In this document: positions 2,179 to 46,735 of the stretch, in pieces
How positions within the stretch are numbered: the first letter of the stretch is position 1
Layout of the letters: each line of letters begins with the position of its first letter
Source: Bacilli bacterium
GTDB taxonomy: Bacteria > Bacillota_I > Bacilli_A > RFN20 > CAG-826
Length of the DNA stretch: 64,000 bases
Assembly (NCBI GenBank): GCA_022482735.1
Contig: JAKVOO010000001.1
Span: forward strand, 181,699-245,698
Direction: 5' to 3'
Notes under the pieces: model-generated
What the model saw: the letters and a program-made list of their open reading frames with translations, nothing else
Databases searched by the model: none
Told to the model about the DNA's origin: nothing
Program-made: the position numbers and the translations under genes

Positions 2179-3162
2179 TTAGCGCTTTCCCTGATCGTAG
2201 GGAATACCTTCGCTCTTGGGAGCCCGCGAATTCTTCGAAGAAAACATAAGAACAATAAGTGTAGCAATAAAGGGTAACATTTTGAAAAACCAGGCAATAG
2301 AAAGATTACTAATAGCGGGAATTAAGTAATAGGTTGAGGCAAAGGATTTCGTTATTCCAAAAAATAAAGCCGCCCACACAATTTTTTCAGGTTTCCATTG
2401 GCCAAAAATCAAAACGGCGATTGCTAAGAATCCATAACCATTCACGCTGCCATCAAAGGATACAGTGGAAGAAATTATGTAAGCTAATCCGCCTAATCCA
2501 GCTAAGCAACCAGATATAATTGTTCCGGCCCACCGATAGTGGTAAACGTTAATTCCAACGGAATCGGCGGCTTGAGGATGCTCCCCACAAGCGCTGAGTC
2601 TTAAACCAAATCTGGTTTTACGAATTACGATCCAAGAGATAATCCAAATGGCGATGCCGATATAAAGCATAATATTTATTTTACGGAAAAAGATATCACC
2701 TATAACGGGAATATCACCTAAGGATGGTATCTTTTGGATCAAAAAACTGGTTGAGAATTGAATGTTTTTTACATCTTGTGGACTTAATGCCCTAGTTGCA
2801 TAAATCACAACGGCGGGAGCAAGCAAGTTTAAGGCTGTTCCACCAATTGTTTGATCAGCTTTCATGTTAATTGCCGAGAAAGCCAAAAGACTAGAAAACA
2901 AACCACCGGCAATCATCGAAATAATGCCCGCTAAGATAAGCATTAGATTACTGTCAAGGGGTGAACCGGAATTTTCCATAATGCGAATAAAGCCAATTCC
3001 AAAGAATGCCCCAAAAACCATTGCCCCTTCAAGGGCAATGTTAATGACACCTGATTTTTCTGAAAACATTCCTCCAAGGGCGACAATTAAAAGCGGAACA
3101 GAGAAAATGAAGGATTCACGAATAATTGTATATAGAATGTCCATTACTTCACCGAAATTCAT
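2179..3162 (-). CDS. nupQ: BMP-type nucleoside ABC importer, permease subunit 2
   Basis: Second membrane subunit (327 aa) of an ABC importer of the BPD_transp_2 (LivH/RbsC-like) superfamily. It is a polytopic protein with about eight to ten hydrophobic segments. The family's cytoplasmic coupling loop region is visible (RLSACGEHPQAADSVGI). It follows its partner permease with a 4-base overlap (ATGA) and has a good ribosome binding site, AAAGGAGAG. Gene order (lipoprotein, ATPase, large permease, small permease) equals nupN-O-P-Q of Bacillus subtilis, which takes up guanosine. The substrate here is inferred to be a nucleoside and is not shown by the sequence. Confidence 0.88.
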   Translation of the reverse strand: MNFGEVMDILYTIIRESFIFSVPLLIVALGGMFSEKSGVINIALEGAMVFGAFFGIGFIRIMENSGSPLDSNLMLILAGIISMIAGGLFSSLLAFSAINMKADQTIGGTALNLLAPAVVIYATRALSPQDVKNIQFSTSFLIQKIPSLGDIPVIGDIFFRKINIMLYIGIAIWIISWIVIRKTRFGLRLSACGEHPQAADSVGINVYHYRWAGTIISGCLAGLGGLAYIISSTVSFDGSVNGYGFLAIAVLIFGQWKPEKIVWAALFFGITKSFASTYYLIPAISNLSIAWFFKMLPFIATLIVLMFSSKNSRAPKSEGIPYDQGKR

Positions 3163-4427
3163 ATTTTGCTCTCCTTTGAAGTTGTTGCTTCATTATCCTC
3201 AAGGGTTTTTTGTTTTTCTTTCTTTTTCTGTCGATTGTAATGGAAGCGCCGAATTACCTCAGAAGCTAAAAGAGCAAAAGCAGAGAAGTAAACAATTATC
3301 GAAACGATAATGTCGACAATTTCCGTTTTAAAGCCATATGACTGAATAAAGTGGCCTCCCCGCTCAATAAAGGTAATAAATCCCGAAGCGAAGATTATTC
3401 CGATTGGATTTGACATACCAAGTAGTGCAACGGCAATACCATTAAAGCCCATTGCCGATAAACTATCCTCGGGAGTGTAGAAAGTTCCTGTTCTAAATGC
3501 TCCTCCAGCAAGGATAAATATTGCCCCGCCTAAACCACTTAAGGCACCAGCAATCGTCATCGAAAGAATAATATTTTTCTTCTCGTTAATTCCGCCATAA
3601 CGGGCGGCATCACGATTTAAACCGCACGCCTTAAGCTCATAGCCAAATGTCGTCTTATTTAAGATAATGTAAATAATAATTGCCGCTAAGATAGCGAGAA
3701 TAAAGCCAATATCAATTGCCGAATTGGGAAAAATATTACGCAATCCCCAAGTGGGAAGGTAAGCAGTTGAGGCAAATGCCTTGGTCTGTGCCTTGTTGGA
3801 GTCATAGAGAATACCTCCACCAAGACCATAAATAAGAGCATTAACCATATACATTCCTATGTAGTTGAGCATAATGGAGGAAATAACTTCGTTGGTATTA
3901 AAGTAGGCCTTAAATAATCCAGGAAGAAAGCCCCAAATGGCTCCCCCAATAATACCAGCTAAAATTGCTACCAACCATTGAATTTGGCCAAGTGAGGAGC
4001 CTAAAACTCCAACCACAATAGCGCAAAACATACCGACAGTGTATTGACCAGAAGCTCCGATATTGAATAGTCCGGTTTTAAAGGCAAAGCCAACGGATAA
4101 GCCGGTACAAAGTAAAGGTGCTCCGTAATATAGCCAATTGCCAATTTCCTTACTGCCATAGCGAAACACCCAACCACCTATCATTTCAAAAAAGGCGGGT
4201 ACGGAATAATTAGGAGAGGTAATAATCATTACGAGAAGCCCGATTAGTAGCCCGCAGACAATTGCTAATAATGAAGCAAGAAATGATTTAAATCCTTTTT
4301 GGGCGAATAGTTTACGCATAAGTTGTGGAAAATTTTTGAAAAAATAGGGAATTTTTTTGGCAAAGATGGCGATAATAAACACTCCGACCGAACGAAAAAT
4401 ATCTTTAATTTGCTTCAGTACTTTCAT
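3159..4427 (-). CDS. nupP: BMP-type nucleoside ABC importer, permease subunit 1
   Basis: Membrane subunit of the same importer (422 aa from the chosen start). The frame is open further upstream to 4547, but that part lies inside the ATPase gene and reads as non-coding. The start at 4427 (MKVLKQIKDIF) is preceded by GGAAAGG and overlaps the ATPase 3' end by about 23 bases. After an amphipathic N-terminus there are multiple membrane segments, and the family loop (ELKACGLNRDAARYGGI) is present. The C-terminus is a lysine-rich tail of about 30 residues. It is larger than its partner permease, as usual for this family. Confidence 0.88.
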   Translation of the reverse strand: MKVLKQIKDIFRSVGVFIIAIFAKKIPYFFKNFPQLMRKLFAQKGFKSFLASLLAIVCGLLIGLLVMIITSPNYSVPAFFEMIGGWVFRYGSKEIGNWLYYGAPLLCTGLSVGFAFKTGLFNIGASGQYTVGMFCAIVVGVLGSSLGQIQWLVAILAGIIGGAIWGFLPGLFKAYFNTNEVISSIMLNYIGMYMVNALIYGLGGGILYDSNKAQTKAFASTAYLPTWGLRNIFPNSAIDIGFILAILAAIIIYIILNKTTFGYELKACGLNRDAARYGGINEKKNIILSMTIAGALSGLGGAIFILAGGAFRTGTFYTPEDSLSAMGFNGIAVALLGMSNPIGIIFASGFITFIERGGHFIQSYGFKTEIVDIIVSIIVYFSAFALLASEVIRRFHYNRQKKKEKQKTLEDNEATTSKESKI

Positions 4428-5955
4428 GATTATTGTTTTCCTTTCCGCCCGCCATATATATACCAAGTTCGCGAACATTAGTTTTCTTAGGGTCAAGCTC
4501 AGCGACAATTCTTCCTTCATACATAACCAATATGCGATCACTAACATTCATAACTTCGTCTAATTCAAGTGAAATAAGAAGAATTGCTTTTCCTTGATCG
4601 CGCTGTTTAATCAGTTCCTTATGAATGTATTCAATGGCACCAACATCCAGCCCACGTACGAGTTGAACAGCAAGTAGCACATTTCCACCGGTTGTAACTT
4701 CCCGCGCAATGATTGCTTTCTGTTGGTTTCCACCCGACATTGAGCGGGCACTGGTGCGGGAACCTTGAGCAGTTCGTACATCAAATTGTTTAATAAGTTC
4801 ATCGGCATAATTATAAATTGCCGGATAATTTAGAAAACCGTGGCGCGAAAAAGGCTTTCGATGATACTTTTTAAGTGCCATATTATATGCCAAATTATAG
4901 TCAAGAATAAGCCCATACTTATGTCGATCTTCCGGTATATGACTTAATCCGGCTTCGTTACGATGAAAGATACTACGATGGGTAACATCCTCATTGTTTA
5001 GTATAATCTTCCCCGACTCGGCTCTTTGTAAACCAGATATTCCATAGGCAAGTTCACTTTGACCATTGCCCTCAATTCCGGCGATACAGACAATTTCACC
5101 AGCCTTAACTTCAAAAGAAACATTGTTTACAACCGCTTTTTTAGAAAAATGACTTCTAATTGTCAAATGTTCAACCTTTAGAAGTGTGTTTTTTGCTAGA
5201 GAAGGCTTTTTATCAACAGTAAATTCAACATCGCGTCCAACCATCATAAAGGAAAGAGATTCCTTATTGACGTTCTTGGTATCGACCGTACCAACAAACT
5301 TTCCCTTACGGAGAACTGTGACGCGATCAGAAATAGCCATAATTTCATTAAGTTTATGCGAAATAAAGAGAATCGATTTCCCCTCTTTGGCCATTTCGCG
5401 CATTATCAGCATCAACTCATCAATCTCCTGCGGAGTTAAAACGGCAGTTGGCTCATCAAAAATAAGGATGTCATTCTTGCGATAAAGCATCTTTAATATT
5501 TCCACGCGCTGTTGCATACCAACGCTGATATCTTCAACTTTTGCATCCAAATCAATCGCTAATCCATATTTTTTAGATAATTCGATAATATTTGAACGGA
5601 TTTTTTTTCTTTGCAAAAACCCATAGTTATTCGGTTCATTTCCTAAAATAATATTATCGAGAACAGTAAAGCACTCGACTAACTTAAAATGTTGATGAAC
5701 CATACCGATACCAAGGGCATTTGCATCATTCGGATTATTTATTTTTACGACTTCACCATTTTTTAGTATTTCACCCTTTTCTGGTTTATATAAACCAAAA
5801 AGGACGCTCATAAGGGTAGATTTTCCGGCACCATTTTCACCTAACAAAGCATGAATCTCACCTTTTTTAAGGGTTAATGATATGTCATCATTAGCAATAA
5901 TCCCAGGAAATTCTTTCGTAATATGGCGCATTTCAATCACATAAGGTTGATCCAT
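4405..5955 (-). CDS. nupO: BMP-type nucleoside ABC importer, ATP-binding protein (two fused ATPase domains)
   Basis: Energises nucleoside uptake on the cytoplasmic face. The 516 residues hold two ABC ATPase domains in tandem. Domain 1 has Walker A GENGAGKS, signature VGMQQR and Walker B ILIFDEPTA. Domain 2 has the atypical P-loop region GIEGNGQSEL, signature SGGNQQK and a degenerate Walker B (AVQLVRGLD). A weak second site is normal for this family, so domain 1 probably does most hydrolysis. The start has a Shine-Dalgarno, AAGGAG, about 9 bases upstream. It is encoded directly after the binding lipoprotein. Confidence 0.92.
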   Translation of the reverse strand: MDQPYVIEMRHITKEFPGIIANDDISLTLKKGEIHALLGENGAGKSTLMSVLFGLYKPEKGEILKNGEVVKINNPNDANALGIGMVHQHFKLVECFTVLDNIILGNEPNNYGFLQRKKIRSNIIELSKKYGLAIDLDAKVEDISVGMQQRVEILKMLYRKNDILIFDEPTAVLTPQEIDELMLIMREMAKEGKSILFISHKLNEIMAISDRVTVLRKGKFVGTVDTKNVNKESLSFMMVGRDVEFTVDKKPSLAKNTLLKVEHLTIRSHFSKKAVVNNVSFEVKAGEIVCIAGIEGNGQSELAYGISGLQRAESGKIILNNEDVTHRSIFHRNEAGLSHIPEDRHKYGLILDYNLAYNMALKKYHRKPFSRHGFLNYPAIYNYADELIKQFDVRTAQGSRTSARSMSGGNQQKAIIAREVTTGGNVLLAVQLVRGLDVGAIEYIHKELIKQRDQGKAILLISLELDEVMNVSDRILVMYEGRIVAELDPKKTNVRELGIYMAGGKENNNHESTEAN

Positions 5956-6014: not shown

Positions 6015-7121
6015 CTAGGCAATATACGTAACAGCAATATTATCTAAAAGGGCGTCCGTTCCCGTGACAGCATCTTTTGGATCGGTCGGCATATAGTTTT
6101 CGACAATCATTGATAATGGAACTAGCGTACCATCAGCAATTTCACCATAGATGGCTTGATACTCAGCCAAAGTCCAAGTATTGAAGCCCCAGGAAGCTTC
6201 AGCGGTTGGTAAACCGACACCATCTTTGCTCGCATCGAGATTCCAAGTTTCACCACCAACCCAAGTACCATCATAATGAGCGGTTAAGGCTTCAATGACC
6301 GAGGCTCCCAAACCTTTCATCGCGGAGGTGATAACCGTGGTTGGAGAATCGTTATATTGATCAACGTCAACTCCGATGACTTTTCCACTTTCTTCAACTG
6401 CAGCTAGCATGACAGATTGACCAACCGAACCACCACAAGCAAAAATCACTTCGGTTCCGGATTGATACCAAGTTTTGGATAAAGCTTTAACTTCTGGCGT
6501 AGCTTTAAAGTCACCGGTGTAATGATAAGTCAATTCAACGCTCTTTGACATTTCTTCAGCGGCTTCATTTGCGCCAGCGGCAAAGCCGAGTCCGTAACGA
6601 ACAACAGCTGGAACTGCCATACCGCCCATAAAACCTAGTTTAGTGTAACCATCTTTAACGGCGCCATAGCCAGCAAGGAATCCGGCTTGTTCTTCGGCGT
6701 AAAGAATCGGTTGAACATTGGTGCCGGTCTTATACTCAGTATAATCAGCATTATGGGGTTCACCATCAAGAAGAACAAAATGAACATCCGGGTATTGATC
6801 TTGAACAAGGAAGATTGGTTCCTCAAAAAGATATCCAGGAGTAACAACAACTTTTGCACCATTGGAGATAGCCAGTTCAATCGCATCGACATAAGCCGTG
6901 GTTGACTTCTCAGATGGCCTGTAATACTGATGGGAAACGGAATGTTCAGCCGTATAAGCCTTCACACCTTCCCAAGCACCTTGGTTAAAGGATTTGTCAT
7001 CAATATCGCCGATATCAGTAATAAGAGCGATTTCCGCTTTCTGGGTTCCACAACTGGAAAGTCCAGCAGCAAGACCAAGAGTGGCTAATCCGACCAAACT
7101 AAAACTAAGTGATTTTTTCAT
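6015..7121 (-). CDS. bmpA: BMP-family nucleoside-binding lipoprotein
   Basis: Extracytoplasmic substrate-binding protein of the importer (368 aa). The frame is open to 7154, but the start is put at 7121 because AGGAGG lies just upstream and the protein then begins with a proper lipoprotein signal (MKKSLSF, hydrophobic core, LSSC with the lipidated cysteine). The BMP fold is indicated by the conserved start of the mature protein (ALITDIGDIDDKSFNQGAW). Homologues (TmpC/PnrA/BmpA/NupN) bind purine nucleosides. It is the first gene of a four-gene operon with a promoter at 7285-7313 and a leader of about 155 bases that can fold (see separate entry). Confidence 0.92.
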   Translation of the reverse strand: MKKSLSFSLVGLATLGLAAGLSSCGTQKAEIALITDIGDIDDKSFNQGAWEGVKAYTAEHSVSHQYYRPSEKSTTAYVDAIELAISNGAKVVVTPGYLFEEPIFLVQDQYPDVHFVLLDGEPHNADYTEYKTGTNVQPILYAEEQAGFLAGYGAVKDGYTKLGFMGGMAVPAVVRYGLGFAAGANEAAEEMSKSVELTYHYTGDFKATPEVKALSKTWYQSGTEVIFACGGSVGQSVMLAAVEESGKVIGVDVDQYNDSPTTVITSAMKGLGASVIEALTAHYDGTWVGGETWNLDASKDGVGLPTAEASWGFNTWTLAEYQAIYGEIADGTLVPLSMIVENYMPTDPKDAVTGTDALLDNIAVTYIA

Positions 7122-7281
7122 ATTTCCTCCTTTTGAAAAAACGAGTCTTAGCATGCAACTTTACAATTATGAAGTCTCATCAGGAAATCATCTGACAAAT
7201 TTCAAGATGAAAAGACACGAATCCTATTCAATAGTTTCGTGCAATATGAACGACCATCATTATCGTGTTCGGTTGCATACT
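7122..7281 (-). promoter_or_regulatory. Long structured 5' leader of the nucleoside importer operon, riboswitch-like
   Basis: Hand folding of the minus strand gives a closed multi-branch architecture. The first transcribed bases (7281-7272, AGTATGCAAC) pair with 7159-7150 (GTTGCATGCT), ten pairs with one G-U. Inside are a hairpin 7242-7236 with 7221-7215 (GCACGAA/TTCGTGT), which contains a small inner stem, and a weaker hairpin near 7271-7248. The 3' strand of the closing helix lies inside a second possible hairpin, 7178-7172 with 7149-7143 (one mismatch), followed by six T at 7141-7136. That is the usual layout of an antiterminator/terminator switch. It does not show the conserved core of the purine riboswitch or another class I recognise. 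Folding was done by eye. Confidence 0.45.
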
Positions 7282-7284
7282 TAT

Positions 7285-7313
7285 AATATAGCGAGGCCGT
7301 TCTTCTTTGTAAA
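7285..7313 (-). promoter_or_regulatory. Promoter of the nucleoside importer operon
   Basis: TTTACA (7313-7308) and TATATT (7290-7285) are separated by 17 bases on the minus strand, a good vegetative sigma factor promoter. The predicted transcription start is near 7278, at the first strand of the leader's closing helix. Confidence 0.65.
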
Positions 7314-7373
7314 TGATAATCAAATGAAAGCGGTCAACTTTACAACTTGTTAGTTATGATTAACTTCGAACAT

Positions 7374-7402
7374 AAAAAAAAGATTGCAACAGCAATCTTT
7401 TA
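7374..7402. terminator. Intrinsic terminator after rplT
   Basis: The perfect stem AAAGATTGC/GCAATCTTT with a 4-base loop is followed on the minus strand by a run of T at 7380-7374. It ends the infC-rpmI-rplT transcript and isolates it from the importer promoter. Confidence 0.85.
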
Positions 7403-8551: not shown

Positions 8552-8698
8552 GGTTTCCTCCTTAATTATTGCCTTGAATAAAGAAAACGGACGCGAAATG
8601 CGCCCGTTAAATTTCAACTCATCGTAGTTCACAACCTACCAGCCAAAGCCAATCAGGTGAGAAGCGGGCGCCTCTTCTTTCTACGTATTCTCTAAGCG
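8552..8698 (-). promoter_or_regulatory. infC leader with attenuator (ribosomal protein L20 leader type)
   Basis: About 145 bases lie between the promoter and infC. Near the end is a hairpin, CGGGCGC/GCGTCCG (8606-8588, one G-U pair, 5-base loop), followed by TTTTCTTT (8587-8582), an intrinsic terminator ahead of the gene. Upstream, a G/C-rich stretch (near 8672-8660) could form the alternative pairing. Position and layout match the L20 leader of Firmicutes, where L20 causes early termination. The alternative structure was not worked out in full. Confidence 0.7.
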
Positions 8699-10720: not shown

Positions 10721-10928
10721 TAAATAAAAAGGCATCCATATAAGGACGCCTGAACGTGTTACCACCTTAATTCGAAGAAGTAAATTCTTCGCACTCAAAT
10801 CCATAACGGGGAATCCGTCTAATTCATCATTAGAAGCTCCAGAGTGGTTTCATTCAACTCCACTATTGGCTTGCACCCAATGCCAATTCTCTAAAAAGTG
10901 AAATTTGAAGACATATCTCTTTCGTAGC
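10721..10928 (-). promoter_or_regulatory. T-box leader of thrS (threonine specifier ACC)
   Basis: tRNA-sensing leader of about 200 bases. Read on the minus strand, stem I has the specifier codon ACC (10848-10846) in the loop context GAATGAAACCACTC. The T-box sequence AAGGTGGTAACACG lies at about 10775-10762, a variant of the usual TGGTACCGCG. The last hairpin, GGCGTCC/GGATGCC (10750-10731), is followed by T's before the ribosome binding site. Uncharged tRNA-Thr should stabilise the antiterminator and allow thrS transcription. Confidence 0.93.
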
Positions 10929-10934
10929 AAGTAA

Positions 10935-36812: not shown

Positions 36813-36819
36813 CAAGTCG

Positions 36820-37030
36820 GCACTGATTCGGAGTAGTAAGTTTGTCTTCTATTGTCAGCGAGGGAGTGTTGGTGTGAGATCCCCAATAGAGTTAACTGAA
36901 TTCACCGATGAGCTGGGTCAAGATAACCCCGTGTAGCATGCGTTAAATGCAATTAAGAGCGTAAAAAATAATACTTACGAATCAGGATGGTACCGCGAAT
37001 GTTCGTTCCTGAACGTAAGTTTTTTTATTT
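36820..37030 (+). promoter_or_regulatory. T-box leader of pheST (phenylalanine specifier TTC)
   Basis: Specifier codon TTC at 36901-36903 in the stem I loop (context AACTGAATTCACC). The canonical T-box GGATGGTACCGCG is at about 36986-36997. The terminator hairpin built on GTTC/GAAC and the CGTAAG region ends in a T run at 37020-37027. Uncharged tRNA-Phe should turn transcription on. Confidence 0.96.
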
Positions 37031-46514: not shown

Positions 46515-46735
46515 TGTAAAACGTTGATGAAGACGCGTCACCATTTTTTAGATAAAAGCGACTAGTGTAAGGTGAGAGACTAGAATTGACAAAATGGTGG
46601 TATCACTTCGGAGTGGAAAATTGATTTTTTTAGATTTTCCCGGTGCGGCCGTTATTCGCTCGAGCGCCAAGTTTAACTTGGAAATAAGGTGGTACCGCGC
46701 GACTGCGTCCTTAGTGGATGCTTTTTTTTATTTAA
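46515..46735 (+). promoter_or_regulatory. T-box leader of ileS (isoleucine specifier ATC)
   Basis: Specifier ATC at 46602-46604 in the stem I loop. Canonical T-box AAGGTGGTACCGCG at 46686-46699. Terminator stem GCGTCC/GGATGC (46705-46721) followed by eight T. The reading frame seen through this leader is not a gene. The leader accounts for the ~300-base gap between ftsZ and ileS. Confidence 0.96.

Follow-up and report, generated by a model that had tools for sequence, protein, structure and literature searches.

The bmpA leader is a real, gene-specific and structured leader, and its closing helix, in which the start of the leader pairs with a strand near its end, is conserved. Attenuation-type control of bmpA is the most likely explanation, and the fold-back leader probably acts as a genuine on/off control region. 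We tentatively propose, as our leading reading, that it is a cis-acting attenuation leader in which the closing helix serves as the default 'on' structure. The main rival is a static 5' structure that protects the mRNA. The window referred to below is the whole stretch of 64,000 nucleotides that was analysed. The first-pass annotation had placed the leader in front of a nucleoside importer, and this is right at the family level, as the genes encode a Bmp/PnrA-like protein, an ABC ATPase and two permeases. The locus contains the following features.

6015..7121, minus strand: bmpA, PnrA-like nucleoside-binding lipoprotein (Pfam PF02608, 155 bits)
4405..5955, minus strand: ABC transporter ATPase with two ABC_tran domains, nupO-like
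3159..4430, minus strand: permease, BPD_transp_2
2179..3162, minus strand: permease, BPD_transp_2
7126..7131, minus strand: Shine-Dalgarno sequence AGGAGG of bmpA
7285..7313, minus strand: predicted sigma-70-like promoter TTTACA-17-TATATT, with the start of transcription at about 7278
7378..7401, minus strand: terminator of the upstream rplT gene

On the minus strand, the leader is bounded by the rplT terminator (7401..7378) and the bmpA start codon at 7121, and this terminator sets the promoter region of bmpA apart. The predicted promoter sets +1 near 7278. The closing helix would thus start with base one of the transcript, and the three outermost pairs of the helix may be untranscribed. Given this predicted start, about seven of its ten pairs should surely lie within the RNA. 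The folded leader is made up of the following elements.

7272..7281, minus strand: 5' strand of the closing helix, AGUAUGCAAC, beginning at the predicted +1 or 3 nt before it
7150..7159, minus strand: 3' strand of the closing helix, GUUGCAUGCU
7163..7266, minus strand: three-way junction and the second, interrupted helix that closes it (7266..7252 paired with 7176..7163)
7215..7242, minus strand: inner hairpin GCACGAA..UUCGUGU
7177..7210, minus strand: inner hairpin UCAUC..GAUGA

The ten-position pairing claimed in the first-pass annotation was recovered (7281..7272 with 7159..7150, including one G-U pair). It also formed in minimum-energy folding, where it was the outermost helix of the fold. 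At least one solid enclosed hairpin had been described, and two were found, at 7242..7215 and 7210..7177, both in the three-way junction. The minimum-energy fold of nt 7281..7148 reached -40.6 kcal/mol, with a z-score of -4.5 against shuffles, and the z-score was -3.7 for the entire leader; values below -3 were also obtained for several other leaders of the same genome. By length alone, the closing helix had a p value of 0.055, with 5.5% of shuffles attaining 10 pairs. The p value was 0.008 against T5 sites of the genome and 0.003-0.01 once the helix was anchored to the predicted start. Long-range duplex energy computed without start anchoring gave a weak signal that was not significant for most orthologues. 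Occlusion of the Shine-Dalgarno sequence was considered as a mechanism and rejected, given that its accessibility in the bmpA leader was ordinary (0.46 versus a control median of 0.45). Besides, the minus strand carries an exact 11-nt direct repeat, TTGTAAAGTTG, at window positions 7335-7345 and 7156-7166, one copy being located upstream of the promoter and the other overlapping the 3' closing strand. Such a repeat is about what chance would be expected to produce in AT-rich DNA.

Conservation was assessed with a start-anchored pairing test. An automatic call supplied the best promoter of each leader. Pairing was then sought between nucleotides 1 to 22 of the resulting transcript and a 51-nt segment whose end lies 14 nt upstream of the start codon, and the reference was a set of 500 dinucleotide-shuffled versions of that 3' segment. 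The outcome agreed with that of two previous versions run under different settings, all three settings having been picked during the analysis. With starts that are predicted and leaders that are not independent within one genus, 11 of the 25 bmpA leaders of the order were significant at p<=0.01, or 10 of 24 after L137 was left out as an artefact of a wrong start call. Nine of these ten are leaders other than that of the window. Among controls, the same level was reached by 4 of 108 leaders of other genes, taken from the window's genome and related ones, and by 0 of 22 clostridial bmpA leaders (Fisher p about 4e-6 for the bmpA leaders of the order versus controls). Counting by genus and leaving the window out, five of the six genera with unassigned leaders had the helix, as against 4/108 (Fisher p 5e-6). 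These five genera are represented by L024, L025, L026, L027 and L030, and the sequence of the helix is different in each. For example, it is UGCA..GAUUUCACG / CGUGAAGUC..UGCA in L024, AGUCGCAA / UUGCGAUU in L025, CAAAGAGCAU / AUGUUCUUUG in L027 and AGCUUAGA / UCUAAGCU in L030. Pairing of the 5' end with the segment before the U-tract has therefore been kept in orthologues while the letters of the helix changed, which supports selection on the closing helix. Furthermore, a T5+ tract near the Shine-Dalgarno sequence was present in 8 of 10 unassigned bmpA leaders and in 15 of 91 other leaders. The distance from the start to the U-tract ranged from 52 to about 153 nt, and the interior varied freely between genera.

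The purine riboswitch core had been reported as absent from the leader, and our searches agree. UAUA, UNUCUAC and GACUA are all lacking, and Rfam returned no match for the leader at the gathering threshold or up to E=10, including RF00167 and its clan with the 2'-dG types. RF00167 had no match in the whole genome either. The T-box model (RF00230) likewise gave no covariance-model match at the bmpA leader, though three T-boxes were found elsewhere in the window. Within the window, Rfam identified three T-box leaders and one L20 leader, at 10739-10934 (-), 36814-37013 (+), 46515-46715 (+) and 8573-8685 (-). The bmpA leader resembles T-box leaders in being long and structured and in its putative antiterminator logic; it differs from them in having neither the T-box sequence nor an Rfam match, and its operon is not an amino-acid gene.

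Homologues of the leader were sought at several levels. A DNA search of 58 relatives yielded matches confined to the Shine-Dalgarno region. The single-sequence covariance model R1, built from the window leader, recovered only itself in 58 genomes, 39 loci and 78 further loci, a scope that took in orthologous loci, Clostridia and 400 kb from the genome of the window itself, together 117 loci of bmpA or of that genome. A pairwise search of the nearest orthologous leaders gave no match to the window leader, a search for a core by shared words and local alignment found none with L023, and RNAalifold returned no consensus structure for the g52 leaders, whose alignment was too gapped. The family yielded ten BmpA orthologues with 54-71% identity, and viral contigs contained three bmpA relatives, none of them close. 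No conserved aptamer core was detected among the orthologous leaders, a comparison of low power with homologues that are few and distant.

Purine-type leaders occupy the same gene and operon place elsewhere in the order. A purine riboswitch (guanine, adenine or 2'-dG type; RF00167 and its clan) precedes bmpA in L048, L139 and L141 with scores above the gathering score, and the bmpA leader of L038 matches RF00167 at 30 bits. Junction words of the purine riboswitch were recognised by eye in L031, L033, L034, L040 and L041; for L040, RF00167 was not listed by Rfam even at E<=10. In the minimum-energy fold of L040, the 5' GAAGAAAUGGG pairs with CCCAUUUUUUC, that is, with the terminator 3' arm and the U-tract. 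The 5' ends of L034 and L041 fold back in the same manner, and in all three leaders the strand of the fold-back also makes P1 of the purine-like aptamer. Because its partner is the terminator 3' arm together with the U-tract, the fold-back acts as an antiterminator in these leaders. The window leader shares with them the fold-back of the transcript 5' end onto the region before the U-tract. It differs from purine riboswitch leaders in that its closing helix stops 8 nt before the U-tract and does not pair with it, in its much weaker terminator, and in lacking the core and the Rfam match.

Several leaders of relatives have features of their own. L034, L040 (about 1160-1350) and L041 carry UAUAG, a GUAUCUAA-type J2/3 and GACUAUCC and are not recognised by Rfam; a guanine-riboswitch variant with a changed J2/3 and G or A at position 53 is possible. 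The bmpA leaders of L031 and L033 contain the purine-riboswitch-like GUAUAAGUGA..UUUCACGUUUCUACCCGAUUUUAGGACUAC with an apparently very short P3, and have no Rfam match. In one genus of the same family (L136, L137 and L140), the leader before the nucleoside importer reads GGGUAUAUCGAU..GAUCACUCCCAGCCUGAAGCC..GGGGCUACCC. It resembles a purine-type aptamer that has diverged, its J2/3 being unusual, and had no Rfam match at E<=0.05. The bmpA leaders of one genus (L028, L133, L134 and L135) are short and form one long hairpin, with a GGCUA/GGCUG word in the hairpin loop in 4/4 and stems that differ.

How the closing helix of the window leader might act depends on two alternative structures.

7136..7181, minus strand: weak terminator-like hairpin GAUGAGACUU / AAGACUCG (arms 7181..7172 and 7149..7142), followed by T6
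7240..7277, minus strand: alternative hairpin that forms early, is closed by UGCAA/UUGCA and takes the 5' strand of the closing helix (seen in stepwise folding)

A competing hairpin ending in six T had been proposed, with the 3' closing strand inside it. The hairpin is present, with one mismatch and a 22-nt loop, but it is weak, at -6.4 to -6.8 kcal/mol. Of 500 T6 runs sampled from the genome, 19% have a hairpin equal to or better than that of the bmpA leader. Real terminators scored identically reached -10.1 (rplT) and -15.8 kcal/mol (L040). The 3' closing strand does lie within the hairpin, but it sits in the loop and so is not in base-for-base competition. The true competitor strand is GAUGAGACUU, which in the closed fold is part of the second helix and of the last inner hairpin. 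Relative to the closed state, the terminator state is less stable by 13.7 kcal/mol, a gap that narrows to 8.1 kcal/mol if transcription starts at 7278. When the 5' strand was blocked in the window leader, terminator and non-terminator folds came within 1 kcal/mol of each other. In stepwise folding, the early UGCAA/UUGCA hairpin held the 5' strand until about nt 66, and the closing helix emerged only after its 3' strand had been made. A test for an early internal partner of the 5' strand gave p 0.22; this test has little power, since it also misses riboswitch-like P1 helices.

Under the attenuation reading, the transcript would fold its first bases back onto the segment that immediately precedes the U-tract and the Shine-Dalgarno sequence. 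The closing helix and the second helix would form the default 'on' state, in which the 5' arm of the terminator-like hairpin is kept occupied. By analogy with the antiterminator of L034, L040 and L041, the closing helix of the window may thus be the 'on' structure. Early capture of the 5' strand by the UGCAA..UUGCA hairpin, or an interior stabilised by a ligand or factor, would block the closing helix, whereupon the hairpin before the U-tract would become competitive and expression would be lowered. This would be the direction expected for an importer. We infer that the leader switches, that its off state is termination and that its interior senses something. Several points count against the attenuation reading, among them the lack of a sensor core common to the genera, the non-significant early hairpin and a transcription start that is predicted. 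The closed state is better than the terminator state by 8-14 kcal/mol, which is large for a switch, and the terminator hairpin, poor in the window leader, was looked for in L026, L027 and L030 and is missing there.

The main rival holds that the closing helix is a static 5'-terminal structure that shields the 5' end of bmpA mRNA from 5'-end-dependent decay, with nothing being sensed, and that it holds the U-rich ribosome-binding region open; each of these two roles is conceivable but somewhat unlikely. In Bacillus subtilis, long stretches of downstream mRNA are stabilised by a hairpin located at the 5' end or close to it (review PMC3997798). A helix at the predicted +1 occurs throughout the set L023, L024, L025, L026 and L030, and the free variation of leader length and interior is expected if only the closed end matters. 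The 5'-terminal stabilising stem-loops of the B. subtilis aprE and E. coli ompA type likewise have the 5' end paired from the predicted first base and an open ribosome-binding site downstream of the helix. However, those stabilisers are short single hairpins, whereas the window leader spans 137 nt from start to U-tract, is branched and is specific to a single gene. Stabilisation requires no more than 20-30 nt; branched interiors and leader lengths of 90-150 nt would be left unexplained by this reading, as would the U-tract near the Shine-Dalgarno sequence. Moreover, the feature is rare in other genes of the same genomes (the 4/108 above), and in the purine-like relatives the fold-back coincides with the terminator.

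It is doubtful that the nucleoside importer of the order keeps one expression platform, formed by folding of the 5' end onto the stretch ahead of the U-tract, while the sensor is exchanged from genus to genus. The exchanged sensors would be purine-type aptamers in some genera and, just as doubtfully, unrelated aptamers in others, including that of the window. A new riboswitch class, with an aptamer in the interior (7266..7163) that binds a purine, a nucleoside or a related compound, is quite doubtful, as is the corollary that plentiful ligand would repress the importer. In its favour, orthologous importers of the order have purine riboswitches or their diverged look-alikes at the same place, the own genome lacks an RF00167 match, and the structure of the leader exceeds chance. 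Aptamer cores are usually kept over much larger distances than those considered here. Yet no core is common to the nearest orthologous leaders despite 54-71% BmpA identity, and the covariance model of the leader matches nothing else in the 58 genomes and 39 + 78 loci. The leader had originally been described as riboswitch-like. None of the three results named there as refuting this was clearly obtained: Rfam gives no hit, the closing helix forms in the minimum-energy fold, and orthologous leaders, though not alignable with that of the window, keep a helix at the predicted start. What stands of this description is a closing helix kept in orthologues; a common core was not found and the terminator is poor. 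Neither an aptamer nor a new riboswitch class is established, because the interior is unalignable between genera.

An accidental inverted repeat in an AT-rich intergenic stretch is improbable. The 5.5% of shuffles that attain 10 pairs by helix length alone and the other leaders of the genome with z below -3 are compatible with chance, but the start-anchored pairing is significant and recurs in five other genera. Least probable of all is translation-coupled attenuation, in which ribosomes on a leaderless mini-ORF at the predicted +1 (7278..7228, AUG and 16 codons, MQPNTIMMVVHIARNY, spanning both 5' strands) would break the closing helix, as this mini-ORF has neither a Shine-Dalgarno sequence nor a telling codon run, the counterpart in L024 is just AUG CAU UAA, and L025 and L026 begin without AUG.

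If the leader switches, it would be a regulatory leader that is invisible to family models, because its sole conserved property is a pairing relation and not a sequence, and the start-anchored test would detect further leaders of such a pairing-only kind. A switching leader would also illustrate how one gene can exchange its riboswitch yet retain the gene-control half, a step in riboswitch evolution that is rarely seen. If the closing helix is a stabiliser only, a gene-specific 5' structure would have been kept despite heavy sequence drift.
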